From: Dacryopinax spathularia
Lineage: Eukaryota > Basidiomycota > Dacrymycetes > Dacrymycetales > Dacrymycetaceae
DNA length: 64,000 bases
Direction: 5' to 3'
Assembly (NCBI GenBank): GCA_037974965.1
Contig: JBBPFI010000003.1
Location: forward strand, 558,001 to 622,000
Position numbers and translations under genes: made by a program. The notes beneath the pieces were generated by a model. It did not search any database. It saw only the letters and a list, made by a program, of their open reading frames with translations, and was not told the DNA's origin. Positions 854-48,100 of this stretch are shown here, piece after piece. Positions within the stretch are counted from its first letter, which is position 1. Each line of letters opens with the position of its first letter.

Positions 854-3781
854 CTAAGGCAGGCCGGGTCCGCATTCCGCGAGACAAATAAGCCGCTCAC
901 CGTCCAGAGTCTCCATACTGGCAACTTTGGGATCAACGACCAACAAGACTGGATCATATTGGGCTTCTTCTGGCAACATCGCTATCGCTCGTTTGTTCAT
1001 GCTCGTGCCGATATTTCGAACATCTCGTCGTGACGGTTTCGCTCGAATAGTGCGAATACCTCCTTTGCCGAACTGCTCGTCTAACTTTGGCAGATGTATG
1101 CGGAATTGAAGCCATACATCTAGAAAATCGAATCGAGCGGGAAGGACGTAACTGGCAGGAACCGAGGGTCTACGACGTCCTGTATGCGCAGTACCGGGTG
1201 GAAGGCTCTTCATGTACCAGTAAATAGTAAGCTGCTCGCGAAGATCGGGAAGAGAGAACAGTTCGGCCACTTGTTCAAGGGTATAACGTTCGAGATGGCC
1301 CTTCTTGGCGACTTGTATTGGCGACTTGCCCAGCAAGGACAGATGTTGGGAAGCTGAGGCGGAACTGTCGACCATTTCTTCATGGCTACAAGCTCTGTCG
1401 ACGGCAGGATCGGTCGGCCCGAAGCCATTATCGTCCGTCTGGTTATCGCTACACTGTAGGTCGAACTCCTCTTCATGCCACTGCTGGGTTCGCCAACCAA
1501 GATAGGCACCGAACTGATGTACTTTCTCTTGCCGATTCAGCCAAGTGACCATCTGACGACAGTATGATTTCTTGTTGGTTGCCTTGTACGCCTTTTTCGC
1601 ATAGTCGATGTGATAGCGCTCAGTGGTCTCAGTGTTGTAATTGTCCGTCGTACCGAGGCGACTGATAGTCCCTCTCCAATGTTCCAGGTTATGCAGCTTC
1701 TGGACGCGGAAGTGGTGTATTGTTCCGTTCTTTCCTTTTCGTGCGCCGTTGCGGATGAACACCTTCCGGTTCTGGAAGTAGCGGTTCTTGTACACATCGA
1801 GAAGTCCCAGTGTGGTGGACGTATGGCTGCTGTATTGGGCCATCTGAATGAAATCCAGATGCGCTCGAAGGGTCCTGACGGCTTGTGGCTCCATTCCTTC
1901 GGCTCCCAATACAGACGCAAGAATGATTCGCTGAAGATCGCGATGTAGACGTCCTGTCCACTGCGAGATTTTGCTGACCCCGTGACGCCAATCCCGCATG
2001 CCCGTCATCCTCGGAAGCGCCATCACCCGGCGGTCTATCTCCTCCATAGTCACGGTATTGAACACCCACTGCGCGGTGTGATCGAAAAAGCCCTTATGCA
2101 AGCCGTGGAGCACGTCTTGCGTCAAAACAGAACATATGTCGAAGCAGGGCAGACTTTCCCAGAACGGATTTTCAACGCCGTTTAGGCCTGCAGCCTGACA
2201 AAGCTGGAGGAATCGATAGCTGCTGGCCCTGGGATTATCGGCTCTGATCTGCTTGAGGGTGGAGAGAATCCAGGCGCCAGACCGAGCAGGAAACCGTTTC
2301 GTTGTCTCATCCAGCCCGTGCCCTTTGGCCATACACGAGACACACGCTGTTTGACTCAAACCGGCGAGCATCAGCTGTTCTTGGAGGTCGGCAGCCCATG
2401 CGGCTATGCGTGCGACGACGAGAAGTATATTGCCGTCAGGATCCACCATTGGAACAGGTTGGAGCGCGAGGGTCTCCAGGGGCTTGATGACTATCTTCAT
2501 GCATGCATGCCACATGCGTCGATTGAGCAGCCCCTGAATAGCCTTCGTCTCGCTTTTTCCTCCGGATACATGGGTGAAGGTTTCGGTCGGCATGTAGGCG
2601 AGTAATACCCAAGCCCTGCGACTGGGCTTGGAGCGAATATCCTTAGCGATGGAACCAATCGTCAGGTATATTGGATGAACGGACTTGTCGCCCGAAAAGT
2701 TGGTGAGATGCGTCTTGTCTGAGCTTAGAACGATCGGGATAAACGTTACGTTGGAATCCAAGCTGGCCTGGGCAATGAACACGTCAGACATCGCTAGAAA
2801 AGGCAAAGGAAGGAAGCAGACCTGCACTTGACAGCAGTAGTCTGCGGTGAGCATTTCATTCACAATTCTAACCCGCCTTCTTTCGTCTGTGAATACCAAC
2901 GACGGCTCCAACAGAACGGACCCAGAGAATGTTGGATTCCCTAGGAGATACCGAACACAATCGACTGGGTTACGATAGAACAGTTCCCGGGGTTCCCCGG
3001 GTGCCTCGTCCAGCGTCACGATCTCGCTCCGCCATTCCGGACCGCCAGGCAGCTTATCGACTTTACTGAGAAGTTCTCGCGCATTGCGAAATGAAACGGG
3101 ATGAGCCCGAACCTAACAGAAAGTGCGTGAGAAGAATATCGTCTGGACGATGAGCATACTCACATAGGCGCTCTGTAGGAATTGATCAATGTCGTGCATA
3201 GACAGAGGTGCCTTGAGGAGGAATGCGGCCAGCTCCCACTCCTCGCAATCGGGGAATGGGAAGAATGGATTAGACGGCTCCTTCTCTCCAGCCTTGAAAG
3301 CCTCCCATCTTGTGTTCATGTGCCCGAAAATCTTCTCGTCCGGATCACCGGGCAAGTACGTGCGGTAGGCGCGATCAGCGCTCGCTGCTGGTGCGCTGGG
3401 ATAACATGGCTCTCGGCTGTGAGGCTGTCGGGAGGCACCGACCTCTTCCCCAAGTCCAGGCCCATCGTTGGCGTCCCTTCCCGTCGGCGCTGGATTTCGT
3501 TCCTCTCCGTCCGAGAACCGGTCCGCGGGCTGAAACCATCGCACCTCGTCTCCCATCACGTTGTCATATTCTTCATGTGGCTCCGACTCAGATTCGAACT
3601 CCCAAAAATCGTCCTGAAGCATTTCGTGTTCGGGAAGAGGTGCGTGGAGGATATCCGTCATCCATTTCCGGCAGGAAGCAGCGTTACTTAGGTGTGCCGA
3701 TAGACCGCATTCGCCGCTGCAGATTCGCCCACATGTTACATTCGGACAAGCCAAAGGATTGGGAATCTGTTTCACAGACAT
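854..3781 (-). CDS. Plavaka family transposase
   Basis: About 958 residues in two exons. An intron at 3113-3163 (GTGAGT...TTAG on the minus strand) joins the frames cleanly. The first exon begins with a CPNVTCGR-type C2H2-like finger typical of the N-terminus of these proteins. The second carries family hallmarks: CVRYLLGNPTF, IVLSSDKTHLTNF, the run HPIYLTIGSIAKDIR, and a CVSCMAKGHG Cys cluster. Downstream blocks around DVLHGLHKGFFDH and TTERYHIDYAKKAYKATNKK are also conserved in this group. The protein would bind the element ends and catalyse cut-and-paste transposition in the nucleus. The frame is open from the zinc finger to the C-terminus, so it is potentially functional. The start is the ATG preceding SVKQIPNPLACP. 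Confidence 0.85.
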
Positions 3782-35365: not shown

Positions 35366-38300
35366 ATGGCGGCCACTCTGCGCGCCTCGACGGTCGCCAA
35401 CCTCCTTACTGGCGCTGGGGGGTATCATAATCTGAAAGGTGAGCTGTATGCGCCCGCGCTGTCCTGCAGAGAGGCTGACAAGACGTTTCAGCGCTGATCA
35501 AGGCGATCCGGGCATGTAAGGTGCGCACCTTCCCCATCTCCCCGTATATGTCCTCGAGCTGACTTGGGTATCTTGAAGACACTTGCCGATGAGCGCGCCC
35601 TTATCCAGAAGGAGTCTGCGGCGATCCGGACGTCCTTCAAAGAAGAAGACTCCTTTCTGCGACACAACAACATTGCCAAGCTGCTTTATATCCACATGCT
35701 TGGCTATCCCGCCCATTTTGGGCAGATCGAATGCCTGAAGCTCGTTGCCAGCCCGCGGTTCGCGGACAAGCGGCTTGGATACCTGGGGATCATGCTTTTG
35801 CTGGATGAGAATCAGGAGGTCCTGACGCTGGTGACGAATTCGCTCAAGAAGTGCGTGTTTTCATGAGGTCTACGTGCAAGGGGGGAAGTGGCTGACTGTG
35901 CGGGAAGTGACATGAACCACTCGAATATGTATATTGTGGGGCTGGCGCTGTGCACTTTTGCGAATATCTCGTCGGAGGAGATGTCCCGCGATTTGTGTAA
36001 CGAGATCGAGAAGCTGCTTGGGTCGAGTAATACGTATATCCGGAAGAAGGTGCGCTATATGCTTTACTTGCTCCGCAATCGGAAGCTGAGATCTGTCTGC
36101 AGGCTGCTCTGTGCGCTCTGAGAATCGTTCGACGAGTACCGGATCTTCTAGATCATTTCATCGACAACGCCAAGATCCTGCTTTCCGACCGGAACCATGG
36201 CGTGCTTCTGACCGGAGTCACGCTTGTAACGGAGATGTGCGAAAGCGATGCTTCTTGCTTGCCCGAGTTCCGCAAGGTGCGTCAAAGTCGTATGCTAGCA
36301 CTTGCGGCTGTACTGATACGAGAACAGGCTGTTCCCCTGCTCATACGACATCTCAAATCTTTGGTCACAACGGGCTACAGCCCGGAGCACGACGTCTCCG
36401 GCATAACCGATCCCTTCCTCCAAACAAAGATCCTCCGCCTCATCCGCGTTCTGGCTAAGGGTGATGCCCAATCTAGCGAAGCGGTCAATGACATCCTCGC
36501 TCAGATCGCCACTAACACCGATTCTGCCAAGAACGTCGGCAATTCGATTCTCTACGAGACTGTCCTTACGGTGCTGGAGATCGAGGCTGATGCCAGTCTG
36601 CGTGTCATGGCTATCAACATCCTGGGCAAGTTCCTCACGAACAGGGACAACAACATCCGTTATGTCGCTCTCAAAACGCTTAATGACGTCGTTGCCATGG
36701 ATACGAACGCTGTTCTCCGACACCAAAATACCATTCTTGACTGCTTGAGAGACGGCGATATCTCCATTCGGCGGAGAGCGTTGGAGCTGTCCTATGCGCT
36801 CATTCGGGAATCGAACGTTCGGGTGCTGACACGAGAGCTGCTCGCATTCCTGGAGGTTGCCGATAATGAGTTCAAGCTTGGGATGACGACCCAGATCTCG
36901 CTGGCTGCTGAGAGGTTTGCGCCGAACAGGAGATGGCACATTGACACCGTCCTGCGCGTATTGAAGCTGGTCAGTGTCGCTAGTCTTCCCTTGACCGAGA
37001 TTGTTGACATATGACAGGCCGGAAACTTCGTCCGAGAGGAGATTTTATCATCGTTCATCCGGCTAGTTTGCCACACGCCAGAACTACAGGCATACACTGT
37101 GGGCAGGCTATTCTCGGCTCTTCAGTCGGACGTATCGCAGGAGTCGCTCACTCTGGCTGCTGTCTGGCTGATTGGCGAGTTCTCCGACATTCTCCTGGCA
37201 GAAGGCGTAACCGAGGAAGAGAAACACAGAAGTGTATGGAGTCTTTATCCTGGACTTGCGCTGCAGACATGTTGACGTTTGGCTCAGGTGACCGCTTCCG
37301 ACATAATTGACCTCTTCGACTCCGTCCTCCAATCACCCTACGCGAACCCCCTCATCCGCCAATTCGTCCTCACGTCCCTCACCAAACTTTCCACCCGTAT
37401 CTCGCCGAATGACCCGCAACAGCAGCGCATACATGGCATGTTATCGCAGTATACCACCAGCCAAGACCTGGAAATCCAGCAACGAGCAGTCGAGTTCTCG
37501 AGCTTGTTTGGTCAGGGTGAGATTGCGGAAGGTGTGCTGGAGAGGATGCCTCCGCCAGAGATCAAGGCTACTGTTCTGGGAGTCGGTACGTTGATAACGT
37601 GTTTAGCTGGTGCATATAGCTGACTTGCTCTACAGTCAGCGAGGCGAAGCCTGTTGGGTCTACAAGGCAAGACAAGGACGTGCGTCGTTCAGCCCATTTC
37701 CTGCCTCATTATCTAACCTTCGTGTTAGTCCCTCATCGACCTCATGGGCGATGAGACCGCCACCGTGGCACCAACGAACGGGGCCAGGGGCACCAACCCA
37801 CAAGATCTCCTCAAGGACATCTTCGGATCGGACAACGATACGGCCTCCATGCCTGCCACTGTTGCATCGCCAGTATCAAAGCCCAAAGCCTCAGTCAACG
37901 ATATCCTTGGTCTGTTCAACCAGACGCCGTCGGCATCAACACCCGCGCCGGCCGCGGCACCCGCAGGCCTGGGCGGTCTAGGGGATATTTCCAGCTTGTT
38001 CGGATCACAACCTGCCGCCACGTCTCCCCCGGCACCGGCGGCCGCACCTGTCCCAGTGCAGCCCGCCGCTCCAGCGAAGCCCGCAGCATCGAAGCTTCCT
38101 GCTTATACCGCTTATGATAAGAACAACCTGAAGGTCACGTTAACGCCTCAACCGTCTGCGGCTCGGCCTGGTATGGTCACGATACTGGCGACATTCTCAT
38201 GCACTGGCTCCGAGCCTGTTACTGGCTTGAATTTCCAAGCTGCCGTTCCTAAGGTGCGTGAATCGCACACCCCAAGAAGGCTAGTACTAATGCGGGACAA

Positions 38301-38557
38301 TAGACACAACAACTGCAAATGCTGGCTATTTCTAATCCGAATATTTCTGCGGGTGCTCCTGCCACGCAGCAGATGCGGGTCATTGCGCCAGCCGGAGTGA
38401 GTCAACCAGTGTATCGGCGTCTGATTGTGATCTAATGCTTCACCCACAGGCACAGATCCGCTTACGATTACGTTTTAGCTTCACGACCGCTGGGCGTGCG
38501 GTCCAAGACCAAGTAGACTTTGCTGGTTTCCCAGCTGACCTGACCGTGGCGAAGTAA
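35366..38557 (+). CDS. APL4: AP-1 complex gamma-adaptin
   Basis: The large subunit of the AP-1 clathrin adaptor acting at the trans-Golgi and endosomes. It begins [20 protein letters not shown] and joins to [10 protein letters not shown] and [20 protein letters not shown]. The adaptin trunk follows with its HEAT repeats: [72 protein letters not shown] and [16 protein letters not shown] Pro/Ala hinge (37.8-38.1 kb) leads to the C-terminal ear: [44 protein letters not shown] and [14 protein letters not shown]. About ten introns, all short. Full-length at roughly 850 residues; nothing odd. It is convergent with BUD6, with only about 125 bp between stop codons. Confidence 0.95.
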
Positions 38558-38681: not shown

Positions 38682-41600
38682 TCACTTCGGACCAAGTGTC
38701 CCGGACGGCGAGACTGGCGATGTCATCCCGCCAAGCTCGCTCAGCGACGCGGTCGAATTCGGACTGAACATAGCCTTGAGTGTCTGTTCATTCCGCTTCT
38801 GGCGCAGGCGCTCGACTTCCTCTGGACCACCCGTCATCTTCAGCTTCTTCCCCTCCACGAAGTTGCTGAGCTCGGCTTGGAACTCGTCAGAACGGGAGGC
38901 CAGCTCCCTGTCTCTCTGCTTCTGAGCCGCCTCGATCGCCTTCAGACGACGTTCAGGATCAACCTGAGCGCCCCTAATCTCCATCATTACTGTGCTCAAC
39001 CCGCCATGGTTCTCCTCAGGGGGTGGCGGACGGTATGACCGGAGCGCCTTCTGCGCCGGGCCGCTTCCCTTCAGCGAGATGAACTTCTCCACGTGACCGA
39101 ATACCTCCTTTAGAGCCTTGTGATCTTCAACGAGATCTGCCAACAGTTCCTCCTGATGCGTAAGGAACTTCTGCTCTTCCACGATATTCTCCAGTTCCTC
39201 GCCCCAGGTCTTCTTCCACATGGGTTTGATGGTTGACACATGCTGAGATAAACTCTCCAGCTCGGTGGCACACGCATCGATATCGCTCTTGAGCTGCCGC
39301 ATCAACGTCGGCTTTGGAACGACCTGCCGCTTGACGACATCGGCTTTGAGATTCTCAACCGAATCGGTGAGCTCCTCGATCTTCGTAAGAGCATCTTGGC
39401 TGCGAGTGTCGAGTTTATCCTTGCCAGCATTAATATATGCCCTCGTCCCCCCGACCTTAGTATCGGCCAATTCACGGACGGCGTTGGTCTGAACTCGGAG
39501 TCCGCCCAAGGCTTCCTTCGTTTGGTTGATGAAGTCAACGTAGAGCTGCCGCATGACACCCAGGTCCCGGCGAATGTTCTGGACTTCATCAAACTGTGTT
39601 TGAAGATCGTGGACTATTCGGCCGGCCGTGATATCAGAGGCACCAGTCATCTGCGGCTGGATCGGCTCAAGCGGAGGTGGCCTATTAGTCGTGCTGAGCC
39701 TCATCTTCGAAAGTTTGCTGGCTGCGGCCTGGAATTGCACATCCGAAGGGCGAGGAGCAGCCGGCCCTCCGCTGGTCGGCGGAATGAAAGTTGGACCGAC
39801 CGACATCCGACGGGATGCAGCCATCGCCTGCTTCAGTTCACGGATATCCTGGGACACGGCAGAGATCTGCAGATCGATATGCTGCTTCACCTGGTCGAGC
39901 GCTGAAAGACAATGTCAACGCCGAGTTTCATACATGTATAAGCCATACTCACGTTCGACATTCAGCAACAGCCTGCTGCCGTTGCGGATATCGTCCAGGT
40001 TTTCAAGCTCGTATCGAATCCTTGTTGCGGGATCTTCGATATAAATGGCAGGGAAATTCTCCAAGCCAGGGTTGTATGAGAACTTGTCCATGAATAAGAT
40101 CCTCAGACCGGCGAATGATATCGTGGGCTCCATTTCAACCTTCTTCGTATGCATGCCCAAAGTTAGGAAGACAGTTAGAGTTCCTGAGGGAGAACCCCGA
40201 GCCGCGGACGCGTCAACACGGCTTTGTTGGATGGGTGTAGAAGTGAACGGCGCAGAAGACTCGTTGGCAGGTTGTACGGCGCTGAAGTTAGAAAGATCGC
40301 TCCCAGCACTCTCGGACTTAACGATGCCATTCGACGATTTGGCATTGCTGATGAACGCGGGTAGAGGAGGAAGGGGCGGCACATCGTCCACCTTGGAAGG
40401 ACTAGGCGTTTGGCGAGTAGGCGTCTCAGGCGTCCGCGTCCGGCTATCAGATCGGTCGATCCCTTTGCCCTTGACGGGCGACTCCTCGCCTTCCGCCAAA
40501 GCACCCAGATCGATAGGCAAGAAAGATCGGCGGTTCTGGACCATAGCAGCTGTCTGCTTGTCCCGCGCTGATGGGCCCGCAGCACCCATTCTCTGGAAAT
40601 TGAAGGTCGAAAACCGCTTTGATGCCCTTCGCTCCAGTACGTCTGCCCTCTGCAGAGCAGCAAATGATGTGTTCGCGCCGAGAGTGGTCATCCGATCCTC
40701 GTCGCCCGTTGGTGCCAACGGCGGGGTATCCTCGCCTTCCTTTGGTGGGGGAGTGGCGAGTTGTGAGCTATAGGTGCTTGGTTGGGTATCATCTTGTCTG
40801 GATATATTGACGGACGACTCCCCAAGTGTCGCTGGCGAAGCCTCAGAGACGACAACATTTGGGGCTGATGGGGCTGATGGAGCTGGCGGTGTATGTGGCG
40901 GCGGTGTTGGTGGCTCTGACTCATGAAGTGCCTTATCAGTCCCTCCTGTATCCGTTACGCGCAGTTCTGGTTGAGACTCCAGCGGCGGCGTAGACACCTC
41001 TTGTGCTGGCGTCACAGGTTTGTCAGACAATGAGAAGCGCCTGACATCTGGCGGCACCACCGGTGGCGGGAACGATGGTGCTTGCGGCTTGACCGGGCTT
41101 GCAGGCTCTTCCGGTATGGACGAGAAGCCACGATTTCCCGTCAAGGATGGACCTCGACGAGGTAGGTCTTTCCTTGATTCTCTCGAGGGCGACTCAGTGC
41201 CTGCTTGTAGCGTTGATGACTGACCAGTTCGACTCGGTGCTCTTGCAGATGATCGTGATCCAGGTCGAGATGGCGTGTCATTTTCCGATCCGGCGTGATT
41301 GGAGCTGTGGTCGTCCCGTCGACGCTGAGGCACAAAGCCGCCGGGAGTCCTCTCCGAAGAGAGGTTCGCAAGAGATGACTGAGAATTGCTCTCTGTCAGT
41401 CCTGGAGCGCCTCTGCCTTCGTCCACAGACTGTGTTCCTGGTCGGCGGGAAGTTATACTCCCGCTTGCCCGACTTGCTGTCGGAGTAGGCACAGATCGAT
41501 GCTCCCTGGCTCGAGAAGCAGACGGGGTGACTGTCCTTCCCTCTTCTGATGAAGCGGAAGGCGGAACGTCCGTCAAAGCGCGTGACGAGCGAGAGCCGCT

Positions 41601-42236
41601 GCCGGATGACCGTGAGGGCCGCGTAGCCTGCAGTCTGCGATATTCCGACTGCTTCGTTCGGAGGCCGTTGAGAAGGTTGGTAATGATTGTCCGGACCGTC
41701 GGAAGATATCGCTCCAGTGAGGCTGTGGAGGCTTCCTCTGCAAGGCACAGCTCGAGAACGTCGCGGAGATCTTGTGGCACAGATAGCAGTTCGCTAGCGA
41801 CGCATGTAAGAAAAGTGCAATATTGTGAAGGAGTGTACTCACCTCATATCGATGCCACAGGAAGCAAATGCGGCAACGGCTGCATTGAAGTCGTTTCCGA
41901 GCCTAACGTAGACATCGCTGACTTGATTCTCGGTCGCCCGCATTTGACTCCATAGCGTCAAAGACTCGAGCAGTTGCTTGATAGCGACCAAAAGCCGGGT
42001 AACGGTGGTCTCTACGCCATTTCCGGACTGCACACGAGTAAGCACTAGCCCCTGAGGTGATATGGTCCACGCACCGATGAGCTTGGTCTTGGTCGACCCT
42101 CTGATCTTCTCGATTGCGAACCAGAGCTGGACGACTCAGGGGGTCGCTCACTCCTAGACGAAGCGGAGTAATAGGTTGATGAATATCCCCTCTCTGACCC
42201 AGATGAAGCTCCTGACTGCACCCTGGCTGTCGACAT
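38682..42236 (-). CDS. BUD6: Bud6/Aip3 actin-interacting polarity protein
   Basis: A polarisome component that binds actin and helps formins nucleate cables at growing tips and septa. The protein starts MSTARVQSGASSGSERGY (Ser-rich). The Bud6 N-terminal domain follows: LLVAIKQLLESLTLWSQM, ENQVSDVYVRLGNDFNAAV, GIDMR and ELLSVPQDLRDVLELCLAEE, then LPTVRTIITNLLNGLRTKQS. A long disordered Ser/Pro region leads to the conserved C-terminal core: VEMEPTISFAGLRILFMDKF, FPAIYIEDPATRIRYELENL, then after an intron at about 39,900-39,951 LDQVKQHIDLQISAVSQD. A coiled-coil rod ends in LGPK. Roughly 1,130 residues, four exons, intact. It is head-to-head (358 bp) with the Bud6-domain-like gene. Confidence 0.93.
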
Positions 42237-42594
42237 AGTCCAAGCAGTGTGCTAGAGAAAAAGAGTAGAGATAAGAAAAAGAAGAAGACAAGACAGACAA
42301 ATGACCAGCAATAATGGCCGTCTGACGCCTTGCGTCTTGGTCTGTCCAACCCAACCCGTCCCGGCCGAAGTTAGGAAGGACCTGCTAAAATGCCTCCGTT
42401 TTGCCTCCTGCGGACGCGGGTCATCGTCGGATAGGGTCCCTTGGGTTACTAGGAGGGGTCACTCGCCCACATCACAACCGGTCAACACGCAGCGCCAGTA
42501 CATCAGCTCACCCAATATATACCCTCAGTCCAGCTCATCGTCTCTCTGTTTCTACCCTCTATTCAACCCTTGACATCGCTCGATACCCAGGACT
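42237..42594. other. divergent promoter BUD6 / Bud6-like repeat gene
   Basis: A 358-bp shared upstream region. The half nearest the plus-strand gene holds a candidate TATA (CAATATATACCC near 42512). Co-regulation of the two genes is possible. Confidence 0.45.
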
Positions 42595-43809
42595 ATGCTC
42601 AGCAGAAGTGTATCGTCATATAACCCGAGAGCGTCACCGTCTACCACTGTCGCTTCGGACCCTCGCGACAGACGCTTGAAGCCTCGAGTCTCTTGCCCGC
42701 CCGTGCCAACAGAGGCAAGCAGACACGTTCCGAGGCACTAGGACATGCTCTCATACAGACCAGGCGTCGTCACCGGTTGCGGTAGACGAGCATGCTGAGC
42801 GGCTCACGCTGTCAGGCGAACAGCTCATGCAGGTGCTCGCGATGTGGAGTGTTCACAGGAAAGCAGTCTGGCAAGTGAGCGCGACTTTCGCCAGGTTTTC
42901 GAACGAATGTAACGCTTCGGCCTCTGTTTTCTCTGCCGCTGGAGCGGACGCCACGTAAGTCCCATGTGCTCAGCTTTTGGGACGCATATCTGATAGTCTG
43001 GATGCTCAGGTACCTCAAGACAATACCGTCTGAACTGCGGCCAATGCTTGAGCAATTGATGTCGGAAGACCCCTCCATTCGGCGCTTTGAACTCTTCAAG
43101 CCTTCATTGGACGCGATTGTGGCCAGGTTCCTTGGCGAGTTGCGGACTATCAAGGAGCGACATGGGCTGGCTTCTGTGCCAAAGCCTGCTCCCCTTCTTA
43201 AAGTGAGCACGACGAGTCGAATACAGCGGCGGGTGCTGACACCGTCGCACTAGTCCCCGAGCGTCAACATGACCCTCGAAGCTTTTGTCAAGTCTATTGG
43301 AAAGCTGAAGGACGCCATCGATATCTGGAGCGTCAAGGAAACCTCAGGCGAAGACATACGGGCCGGCTTGGACCACCTGGACGAAGACTTTAAGGCCCTG
43401 TCGACCTCTTTCAGCGAACGCGGTATAGATCTCAAGTAAGATGACCCATATTCATCCTGGAAAGGCCGCTCATGATTAAACAGGAGCGAGATTGCCCCGA
43501 TCTTCGAAGAACTGAAGACACTTGTCGAGGAGCTCGTCACGCCAGGCATCGCAGGCGAATGGGACGAACCCTTCTCTGACCAACTGAACGCGCTCCTCAT
43601 CCGGCTACTGAGTGGACTGAAGAGCAAACAAGCCCAACTCTCTCAAGCCCGAGAGCAGATCAAACGACGAGCGACATTCCGACTCCGTACGTCCATCTTC
43701 GAAGAACAAGCTTCTAACGGGCCCAGGCTACCAAGCACTTTATCTCGCAGTCATACCGGAAGGAACTTCACCAGCTGAGGGGAACTTCCAACATTGTCGG
43801 AGGAGGTAG
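42595..43809 (+). CDS. protein with two Bud6-N-terminal-like repeats
   Basis: I know no named homologue. The conceptual protein contains two divergent copies of the Bud6 N-terminal fold. Repeat 1 reads LSGEQLMQVLAMWSVHR, ATFARFSNECNASASVFSAAG, then IPSELRPMLEQLMSEDPS and FLGELRTIKERH. Repeat 2 reads FVKSIGKLKDAIDIWSVKE, LDHLDEDFKALSTSFSERGI, then FEELKTLVEELV and LLIRLLSGLKSKQAQLSQ. Both share the L..WS, F(N/K)A...F...G and L(R/K)..K pattern of BUD6 next door. Introns at 42955-43009, 43203-43253, 43436-43483 and 43687-43726 rejoin frame. The 5' end is unresolved: ATG 42595 opens one frame but the repeat-1 frame needs another exon junction, so an internal ATG near 42826 is an alternative. There is no C-terminal Bud6 core. 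Confidence 0.6.
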
Positions 43810-43893
43810 GCGATCACCCGGAGGAAGGAGGCGACACCCGGAGGAAGGAGGCGACACCCGGAGGAAGGAGGCGATACCCGGACGGAAGAGGCG
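43800..43893. repeat. 20-bp tandem minisatellite
   Basis: Four units of CACCCGGAGGAAGGAGGCGA or close variants start at the stop codon of the Bud6-like repeat gene. The last unit is degenerate. One unit boundary overlaps the inferred terminal codons (HCRRR), so repeat expansion may have set the C-terminus of that gene. Confidence 0.85.
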
Positions 43894-44150
43894 GATTCTG
43901 CGGACCTTGATTCATTGTACATGTACACTGGCGAGAGAACATTGTTGTATCGATACCTATACCATCATTCATGCCGTTTACAGCGTTCCACTCCGTCCGC
44001 TGAGACATCCAACGCCTCATAAGCGCCGGGAAGGATTAGCGCCGACCCTGGGTATACTGCCGAACTTCTTCCGGACTGAAAAGCTGGACCCTCACTTTGC
44101 CACGGACCCTTGCCTGCCTCTCCTCTCTCAGCAGCATTGAACAGCACAGA
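43810..44150. other. intergenic with 20-bp minisatellite
   Basis: Begins with the minisatellite listed separately. The remainder is the TMA16 promoter, with no further features. Confidence 0.5.
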
Positions 44151-44944
44151 ATGCCGCCACCAAAAGCGAAAACTGGCAAGTCGAAAGGGCCGAAGGAAAA
44201 GGTCTTCCATCCCGAATCGCGCAAGGCCGGTCAACTGGAGCGTAAGCTGCTGAGAAAGCAGAAGCTCGAGAAGGCCGCCGTCGCAAAGTCGCGCAAAGCG
44301 CTCGAGCAAGGCGCGTTCCCCACCGTTCCCCTTCTACCCGATGGCTGACAAGGATAAAAAGTGGATAGGAACGTCTTCTTCCTCCATGCTCTGCCTTCCG
44401 AGGCACTTGCGCTCACCTTGAGCGAGATTCACGATATCCTACGTGATGTCTGGTTGATGAGGCACGACGAGCTGATCAAGGCTGAGGAGGCGGCGAGACG
44501 AAAAGGCAGGCCGAGGAGTACGAAGGAGGAGAAGTTACTTGCGCAGAAGCACATGGATGCCGAGGAATATCGGACTGGTATCGGTGCGTACATCGAACGA
44601 TCGTCTAGGAGGAATGCTGATAGTTTTGCGCAGAGATACCCGATCTCACACATCCTGCTAATGTCGCCTTGTTCCGGAAATGGAACGCCGATGACCCAGG
44701 CTTTCTACCCTTGCTGCGCTGGATACGCGTATCGAGTGAGCGGCCAGATGAGGTGGTGGTGTCGAAGGAGGGGAACCAGAAAGCACTGCTGAACGCAGCG
44801 GCGGCGGCCGGTATTTCATTAGATCTGGCACAACAAGCTGCCGATCCAATGGATGAGATACCGCAGGTGGCGGACCTGACTCTGGATGCGGTTCCCAGCG
44901 CTGCTGTGGACGGCCTTGCAGCGGGTTTGGATAATCTACTGTGA
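44151..44944 (+). CDS. TMA16: translation machinery-associated protein 16
   Basis: A 60S pre-ribosome-associated nucleolar protein. It begins MPPPKAKTGKSKGPKEKVFH, then PESRKAGQLERKLLRKQKLE, the Lys-rich N-terminal helix of the family. After an intron follow LTLSEIHDILRDVWLMRHDE, a RRKGRPRSTKEEKLLAQK block and EEYRTG. The next exon continues through IPDLTHPANVALFRKWNADD-like sequence to PGFLPLLRWIRVSSE. The C-terminus (DEIPQVADLTLDAV) is acidic and poorly conserved. Size is about 200 residues. Three exons, intact. It is convergent with the GIN4-type kinase, about 190 bp apart. Confidence 0.88.
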
Positions 44945-45137: not shown

Positions 45138-48100
45138 TCACCGTAGGTAATCTGACTGTCTTGGTGACTCCAGCGTTGCATCCCACTCGTGTCGTAACCG
45201 AGCGTAAATGACCTTCAACGTTGATAGCGCACCCTTCTCTTGTATGAGGGTCATCACGGTTGTGTAGCCAGCTGCGTTCTGCACGCTGTTGGTGAGGTGG
45301 AACTCCACACGGAAGCGAACGGCTTTCGTGACGGCCATGACACCAGCGGGGTCTGGAAGACTAGTGAATAGCAGGCTTGGTAACGGTAAGAAATTGAACG
45401 TACCACGTATCTCATCCAACTTGCACTTGAGTACACCTGGCCCGTCAGCATTTTGCAGGAGTACAGTGACACCGAAGTTCTGCAGCATCTTGCGACACTC
45501 GTCTCGACTGACAGCCATGTTGTAGCGCGACAGAAGCTCGTATTGAGGCGCCTTGAAGTTGAAGAGGTTGTTAAACCATGTCCTCTTCGGAGCACTGACT
45601 TGGTTATATGACATTGGAGGAACCATAGGAATGTCTTCGCTGCTACTGGTGGACACTAGCACCAACATCGTCAGCTGTTGATCTGCAGGAGGCACCAAGT
45701 CGAAACTCACGAATAGAAGATGCCTTGGAGATGATGCTCTTCTTCTTCTTCAGCGTTCTGTCCGGCATGGTAGGCAGCACGATCTGCACATGTCGCTCGC
45801 CGAGTGCATTACGTCTTCCGGTCCAGCGATTATGCCCCTCCATGGCCTCAGCCCTGTCAATGACGACGAAAGCGTCACGACCAAGTTCCCGAGCATCGAG
45901 AGCCGATCGAGTTCCTTCTACTGATCGTCGAGGTGTGACATTCTCTTTGTTCTCCTTGCTAGGAGAATCGACAGAATATGCTCGCGTCCGTGTAGGCGTT
46001 GGAGCTGGACGACGAGGAGCTGACGGGGGAGCTGATCCGCGGTGTCCAGGAGGATTGCGAAGTTGAGGTGCAGGTGGAAGCAAGCTAGCCCGGACACCGA
46101 CGCTTGGTGGGCGTGGTCCCCTTACCGCCGCTTCATTTCCTGAGATGCCCAGACCAACTTGGGCGTCGTAAGGGGGGGACGCTGCTTCATCCCTGGCGTC
46201 CTCGAACTGATTAGGGTCTGAGAGGCTGAATGTCGCGCTGGAAGGAGTAGGGGGAGGCGGGTTGACAAGGGTGAATGGCGGGAAGTTGGCGTTCGAAGCC
46301 GTAGAGGGCGTGGGTGATGGCTGGCCAGAACCGACGAAGAGGGACTGCCGCGCCTCGATCTTGCTCAGATGCTCCACAATGTCGTTGAAGAACTGCTGCA
46401 CCAGCGGATCGTTAGTCTGAGGCACTTGTATCGGTAGCTTGGGAGACATGACGCTGCTCGCAATCGTGGATGGCGAGCCAGCTGAGAGCGCAGGAGTAGG
46501 CGGCAAGGATGATGTTGCAGGGCTGGGTGCTCTTGGCGCAGTGTTGACAGCTGTAGGCCGCTCTGGAGTACGCTGCGGTGTCGGTGTCTGCAGACTGATC
46601 GCAGGAACGGCCGGTGATGTAGGAGACGAGGGTGAAGAACGATCCGGTATGGGAGCAGGAGGTGCCAAGAACGGCTTCTCCAACCGAGCTCCCTGATCCA
46701 CCCTTGGAGAGGCGGGAGGGCGGCTATGGGACGACGAGGTCTCAGCAGCTTCTAGCTGAGGTGACGGGAGCGGCCGTGGACTGCGAGCTGTAGTGCGAGG
46801 TGATGAGTGTGCCACTGGCGAAAGCAGACGTACACCAGGATCATTACTCGGCTCGCTGATTCCCCGCATGACAGGTGGTCTGCTTGGTGTCGACATCCTA
46901 GAATCGTCCTCACCGGCCGCACGCTTCGGCGTCGGCGCAGACGGGCGAGCAGGTGGTGTTGCCTGCGGTGTCCGACTCTCGATCTCCTCGATCTTTGGAC
47001 TCAAGGCAGGTGGTGCAGGAGCTGGACGATGCCTCTTCGGTTGTGGGACAGCCTCGTCCTCATCCATGTTGAAGTTCTCCAAGTGACGAGCACGGTACTG
47101 CAGCAACAGATGATACACGGCCTTTTCCCATGTTTTCCTTGTGTGCTATATTAGGCATGAACAACCGGATATTGAATTAGACTCACTCGTTATTGAGTAG
47201 ACCCTCCATGATTTCCTCATCCGGAGCGCCATGCCAGAGCGTGCGGAGGTTAGCGAAGATGTCCGCGTCAATGTCGGCAGCGGAAGCGACTGGCCGAGCA
47301 ACCTCTTCCAGCGTAGGCGGCGATACGACGCGACCAGCTATTGGGCGAGGTGCACGAGACAGGAAGAATGGGTGTTGCAGAATTTCCGGCATCTACAACG
47401 TGTCAGCAATGGAACATTGCGAGTAAGGGAGTACCTTACGGTTATCCGCTTGGTAACGTCCTTCTCCAGCATCCGTGAAATCAGATGTTTGCAAGAGCTC
47501 GGAAGATCTGGCGGCATGATATAGTCTCCCTTCTTCACCATCTGCAGCAGCGTGCGGATATCGGGGTGGTCGAAAGGAAGTCGACCCGTACATAGCGCAT
47601 ATAGAATGACTCCACAACTCCAAATGTCGCTGCATGCGCCAGAGTACTTCTTTCCTTGAACGATCTCGGGACTCGCATAATGTGGGCTGCCACAGCTCGT
47701 CTCCAACATACCACCTGCTGCGCTACCACCTTCCCACGCGGCCATACCGAAGTCGGCGACTTTGATGTTCTTTCTTGACCGATCGAGGAGCAAGTTCTCT
47801 GGCTTCAGATCGCGATGCGCAATATTGAAGCGATGGCAGTAATCAACGGCGGAAATGATTTGCTGGAAGTAGTGCAGCGCTTCTGGCAGCGAAAGTCGTC
47901 CACGCGAAACCAGGTAGTCGAACAGCTCGCCACCCTCGACGTACTCCATGATCAGATAGCTAGACAGAGATTGAGAACGACCCAGCCTCGTCAGAGAGTA
48001 GTAACTTACAGCTCGTCACTCGTCTCCCAAACGTCGTACAGGCTGAGCACGTTTGGATGATCGACCAGCTTCATGATGACGATTTCCCGTTCAATGGCCA

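Follow-up and report, generated by a model that had tools for sequence, protein, structure and literature searches.

What kind of protein is encoded beside BUD6 in Dacryopinax spathularia, and what could it do in a cell that also has a full Bud6? The question arises in a window of 64,000 nucleotides (the whole stretch of DNA analysed, C3:558001-622000) from a source genome of 29.2 Mb in 24 contigs. Of Bud6, a central actin-cable regulator, the N-terminal region is understood least, and the functions of this region are termed less well defined in the passages of the yeast study covered here (PMC6737964). A natural protein made of little but a doubled Bud6 N-terminal domain would be a ready tool for finding the partners of this region, and it could serve in testing whether a paralogue without the core tunes polarity.

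Two divergent Bud6 N-terminal domains without the actin/formin core

The gene lies on the plus strand at 42595-43809. Its six-exon model (42595-42702, 42764-42954, 43010-43202, 43254-43435, 43484-43686 and 43727-43809) runs from an ATG at 42595 to a TAG stop ending at 43809 and encodes 319 aa. The spliced model is supported by its codon score and by a match of 121.2 bits, in two stretches, to the Pfam family PF23153 (Aip3p_Bud6_N). Repeat 1 is formed by exons 2 and 3 (42764-43202) and scores 65.9 bits (E 4.7e-18) over profile positions 5-104 of 109, while repeat 2 is formed by exons 4 and 5 (43254-43686) and scores 59.9 bits (E 3.4e-16) over positions 4-108. Both are well above the cut-off of 27 bits and cover the profile at near full length. 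The preliminary description had aligned the two segments by eye with the Bud6 N-terminal domain of the neighbouring gene and had proposed a profile comparison with the corresponding Pfam domain; the homology is borne out by that comparison. Its remark that no named family was known does not stand, as the domain already has a name in Pfam. Matches of two other families to the whole tandem protein fall short of their cut-offs (E 0.13 and 0.16).

Pairwise comparison leads to the same relationship. Local alignment scores exceed those of all 2000 shuffles in each of the three domain pairs (3/3): BUD6-N and repeat 1 share 34 of 104 aligned residues (score 163, z 28), BUD6-N and repeat 2 share 25 of 108 (score 99, z 15.6), and the two repeats share 25 of 105 (score 72, z 9.5). 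Repeat 1 is thus nearer to BUD6-N than repeat 2 is, and by score the repeats are least like each other. The three aligned domains have 14 invariant columns in common, with the WS pair and two GID residues (G and D) among them; the shared positions comprise W-S, A, F, G and D, L, and E. A [VI]P..LR motif is common to BUD6-N and repeat 1 and is absent from repeat 2.

The Bud6 C-terminal core is missing from the tandem protein, as the preliminary description had held: PF03915 finds no match in it at E values up to 10, and the only genomic place found for this profile is BUD6. A Bud6/AIP3 orthologue is recognised by this C-terminal core, and the tandem protein is not one by that measure. It consists of two divergent Bud6 N-terminal domains without the actin/formin core.

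On the minus strand, the neighbouring gene is a full BUD6 (38682-42236), which can be spliced into a single frame encoding 1135 or 1134 aa, stop excluded. Its exons are 42236-42075, 42027-41843, 41793-39953 (or from 41790) and 39901-38682, and the choice of exon 3 acceptor sets the length. The N-terminal 193-residue piece matches PF23153 with 159.2 bits, and the core matches PF03915 with 450.8 bits in the genome search and with 344.9 and 85.3 bits on two large open frames. The start codons of the two genes (42236 on the minus strand, 42595 on the plus strand) are separated by an upstream region of 358 bp (42237-42594).

The surroundings of the pair contain several other genes. On the plus strand, a match to the Adaptin C-terminal domain (PF02883, 34 bits) at 37744-38400 belongs to a gene that converges on the BUD6 3' end and stops just short of it. 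Directly downstream of the tandem gene, also on the plus strand, lies the gene for Translation machinery-associated protein 16 (44097-44944), with PF11176 in two of three scanned open frames. It is followed on the minus strand by what appears to be a single protein kinase gene (45138-47949, given as unspliced exons), with a PF00069 kinase domain (162 bits). A Fungal_KA1 match close to the end of this gene stays under its threshold (21.4 bits; cut-off 27), and the near end of the gene is about 3 kb from the BUD6 start. The gene resembles septin-associated kinases of the Gin4/Hsl1 type. Far from the pair, at 854-3019 on the minus strand, a Plavaka-type transposase frame (PF18759, 266.8 bits) occurs with DUF6830, and DUF6532 matches are also present within the window.

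In the genome as a whole, the PF23153 profile gives at least five exon-level matches (E up to 10), all inside the tandem gene and BUD6; four of the five are above the cut-off, and the fifth (42797-42958) is just under it at 25.3 bits. PF03915 identifies at least one place, which is BUD6. These counts are lower bounds, as the genome profile searches score the best candidates only. A DNA search of the source genome with 42237-43809 returns the self-match alone, as does a protein search with repeat 2 (E up to 10). The latter misses repeat 1 and BUD6 and is therefore too insensitive to exclude further copies; the profile search is the better guide. A scan of viral contigs yields 43 pattern stretches and no relative; a prokaryote scan yields 66 pattern stretches and one 21-residue match, in a Clostridia MAG (L012), that is taken as chance.

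Fourteen named genomes served as controls for the genome profile searches; the repeat 2 protein search and the DNA search were run without them. None of the 14 gives a match to PF23153, GIT_SHD, FH2, EB1, STE3 or hydrophobin, and sub-cut-off matches occur in Haloferax volcanii for PF03915 and in Escherichia coli for SH3BGR. In the source genome, seven exon matches to STE3-type receptors fall at two places of a single contig, and hydrophobin gives three matches. Together with the Plavaka and DUF6532 matches of the window, these are markers of a kind that fits Agaricomycetes.

A sole Bud6 homologue was identified by BLASTp in Neurospora crassa, according to the part of that report covered here (PMC3265482), which fits, without proving, the absence of the second gene from ascomycetes. 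Among the open-licence matches listed, as judged by title and beginning of abstract, none describes a Bud6 paralogue or a tandem or stand-alone Bud6 N-terminal protein. What is new is the domain arrangement, that is, two Bud6 N-terminal domains and no core; the domain family itself is already known in Pfam.

Intron positions, probable duplication history and coding potential

Gene structure gives independent support for the homology of the three domains. A single internal phase-2 intron divides the domain in BUD6, repeat 1 and repeat 2, and breaks the codon directly after GIDM, GADA (the GID-equivalent motif) and GIDL, respectively. These introns are located at 41794-41842 on the minus strand in BUD6 (GTGAGT...TAG, or 3 bases longer with the alternative acceptor), at 42955-43009 on the plus strand in repeat 1 (GTAAGT...CAG) and at 43436-43483 on the plus strand in repeat 2 (48 nt, GTAAGA...CAG). 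The place is the same in BUD6 and repeat 1, and repeat 2 agrees within one codon, the closest that its intron can be aligned owing to a one-residue gap. A phase-0 intron also lies at the edge of each domain, and the conserved tryptophan is codon 26, 28 and 25 past it in BUD6, repeat 1 and repeat 2. In repeat 2 this is the inter-repeat intron (43203-43253, plus strand, GTGAGC...TAG); in repeat 1 it is the modelled intron 1 (42703-42763, plus strand), which is uncertain, with a weak donor (GTGCCA) and an acceptor picked for frame.

When one intron per domain is placed at random under a uniform model, the internal introns coincide to within one codon and share their phase in 6 of 200000 trials; the edge introns coincide to within three codons and share their phase in 808 of 200000. 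The latter number is to be read with the caveat that keeping the frame was part of the reason for choosing the splice ends of intron 1 in both genes. Because intron places and phases match in all three domains, the two-exon pair itself seems to have been duplicated, and because the three domains are just 23-33% identical, the duplication looks old. The 5'-terminal two-exon cassette of BUD6 may first have been copied in inverted orientation across the shared upstream region; this copy would then have doubled in tandem to give the two repeats. The preliminary description had presented the gene as transcribed head-to-head with its parent over 358 bp. The geometry is as described; BUD6 is no more than likely as the parent, given how far the three domains have diverged.

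The codon statistics of the tandem gene are those of a coding sequence over most of its length. The modelled frame scores 0.136 bits per codon vs -0.103 in both other frames, and the highest value among 2000 letter-shuffled sequences is -0.004. BUD6 reaches 0.142 bits per codon, but its exons were part of the training set. The four domain exons (2-5) each score highest in the modelled frame; they are open in the right frame, look coding by codon use and have standard splice ends. In exons 1 and 6 the modelled frame gives -0.108 and -0.119 bits per codon, and exon 6 has an alternative stop-free frame that does better (0.13), which leaves both termini of the protein uncertain. At the C-terminus this also concerns the modelled last intron (43687-43726, plus strand), which has 40 nt and a branch-like CTAAC site. 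A tandem array of 20-bp units (43798-43893; 4.8 copies, 92% matches) begins within the modelled last exon, at the 3' end of the gene. One open frame extends into this array, and if the last intron is unused, the frame stops earlier, ahead of it.

Predicted structure and candidate partners

The structure predicted for repeat 2 has four helices and is of low confidence (mean pLDDT 64.4, pTM 0.46); the underlying alignment had one full-length row and four rows that cover half the domain. Foldseek returns 243 PDB matches for this model at E up to 10, and not one of them reaches E 0.001. With a model this weak and no PDB match at that level, no fold relation is claimed. A sequence search of the PDB with phmmer finds nothing at E up to 1, and six matches from a PDB profile search (E up to 10, the best 0.69) are taken as chance. 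The four-helix model fits a helical binding module without proving one.

Membrane targeting, which the preliminary description had considered, finds no clear support in the modelled protein. There is no transmembrane segment, the best 19-residue hydropathy being 0.75. The two ends, which include the uncertain exons, carry net charges of +5 and +6 over 36 residues each, and peripheral membrane contact through these basic ends is possible.

What a Bud6 N-terminal domain may bind can be judged from yeast, as far as the accessible part of the study goes. Residues 1-141 of yeast Bud6 bind Aip5 directly in split-ubiquitin and pull-down assays; the part of Aip5 involved extends from residue 1000 to the end in the pull-down, and residues 1000-1131 suffice in the split-ubiquitin assay (PMC6737964). 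Bud6 1-364 helps localisation and binds Bim1, and the parts that bind Bni1 and actin are C-terminal (PMC6737964). Fission yeast is described as lacking Aip5 in the portion of the source covered (PMC12450465).

Possible partners occur in the source genome, each number being a lower bound. The profile searches find a Spa2-type candidate (two neighbouring SHD matches that fit one gene), a formin (one FH2 locus with two exon matches) and one EB1 match. The SH3BGR profile has a single match (L013, about 1501-1662 on the minus strand, 34.7 bits), in which the domain is at the start of the frame and is followed by a long low-complexity stretch. An Aip5-like partner was sought through this profile; the sole match found does not carry the domain at the C-terminus as Aip5 does. 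SxIP is the Bim1-type binding motif. Binding of Bim1 through it finds no support for the tandem protein, with 0 motifs in 319 residues vs 2 in the N-terminal part of BUD6.

Possible roles and comparison with known systems

The preliminary description proposed an accessory of the polarisome, acting as a competitor or scaffold, and this is a fair hypothesis when set beside the yeast data on the Bud6 N-terminus. We tentatively favour, at somewhat less than even chances, a two-domain, non-nucleating adaptor or competitor for the partners of Bud6-N, derived from a duplicated BUD6 5' cassette. Each repeat would be a helical protein-binding module for the partner or partners that place Bud6 at growth sites. 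Because the core that binds Bni1 and actin is absent, the tandem protein would occupy these partners without nucleating actin; on the yeast domain map, in the part of the study covered, two N-terminal domains without a core should therefore bind Bud6-N ligands without helping the formin (PMC6737964). A two-headed, core-less protein would hold such partners two at a time, and the outcome may be competition with Bud6 or the bridging of two partner molecules. If both genes are transcribed from the shared 358 bp, the dose of the tandem protein could be tied to that of BUD6. It is a good deal more doubtful that mushroom-type fungi possess a dedicated two-headed Bud6 decoy, encoded from the same upstream region as BUD6, that ties up or bridges the factors placing Bud6 and so sets the place and strength of actin cables at hyphal tips, septa or clamp cells.

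Other readings of the gene need to be weighed against an adaptor or competitor. The domain pair may have moved outside the polarisome, for instance to the septum, nuclear migration or vesicle tethering, and have ceased to share partners with BUD6. The strong divergence of both repeats from BUD6-N and the loss of [VI]P..LR from repeat 2 would agree with this, as would the finding, in the portion of the study available, that in Neurospora even BUD-6 fails to colocalise with SPA-2 in the Spitzenkorper (PMC7275032). The invariant positions kept in all three domains and the shared upstream region nevertheless suggest some common use, and we regard such a departure as rather unlikely. Further down the scale of probability, the tandem protein may bind the N-terminal domain of BUD6 itself and modulate Bud6 directly, without a third partner. 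The Bud6 core is dimeric, and a two-domain chain from a locus with paralogous domains would mimic the two N-termini of the dimer; self-association of the Bud6-N domain is, however, not stated in the portions of the literature examined, and we consider direct binding improbable.

The least probable account is that the gene is a decaying or unexpressed partial duplicate of BUD6, a relic whose frame is open by chance. It would explain the poor codon scores of exons 1 and 6, the weak donor of intron 1 and the repeat array running into the 3' end. The copies look old at 23-33% identity, yet the four domain exons are open, coding-like and bounded by standard splice ends, whereas stops and frameshifts would be expected in a relic of that age; a pseudogene is thus very improbable.

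The wider interest of the proposed adaptor or competitor hinges on the conservation and expression of the tandem gene. If conserved, it would represent an extra component of the hyphal growth machinery in mushroom-forming fungi, maybe one that is missing from yeast models.

Among known systems, Bil2, an inhibitor of the formin Bnr1, is an earlier example of a protein that restrains formin-driven actin cables, in the part of the report covered and with no sequence relation claimed (PMC7900418). Aip5 (YFR016c), the yeast ligand of Bud6 1-141, is a partner and not a relative of Bud6-N, and illustrates what this domain can bind (PMC6737964, as far as covered); the only SH3BGR-type match found here is without an Aip5-like layout. 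The Bud6/AIP3 core (PF03915) is present in the neighbouring full Bud6 and has no match in the tandem protein. The closest likeness is to the Aip3/Bud6 N-terminal domain (PF23153), with both repeats above the cut-off and the intron places of BUD6 retained, and the difference is that the tandem protein has two copies of this domain in a small protein without the C-terminal core.
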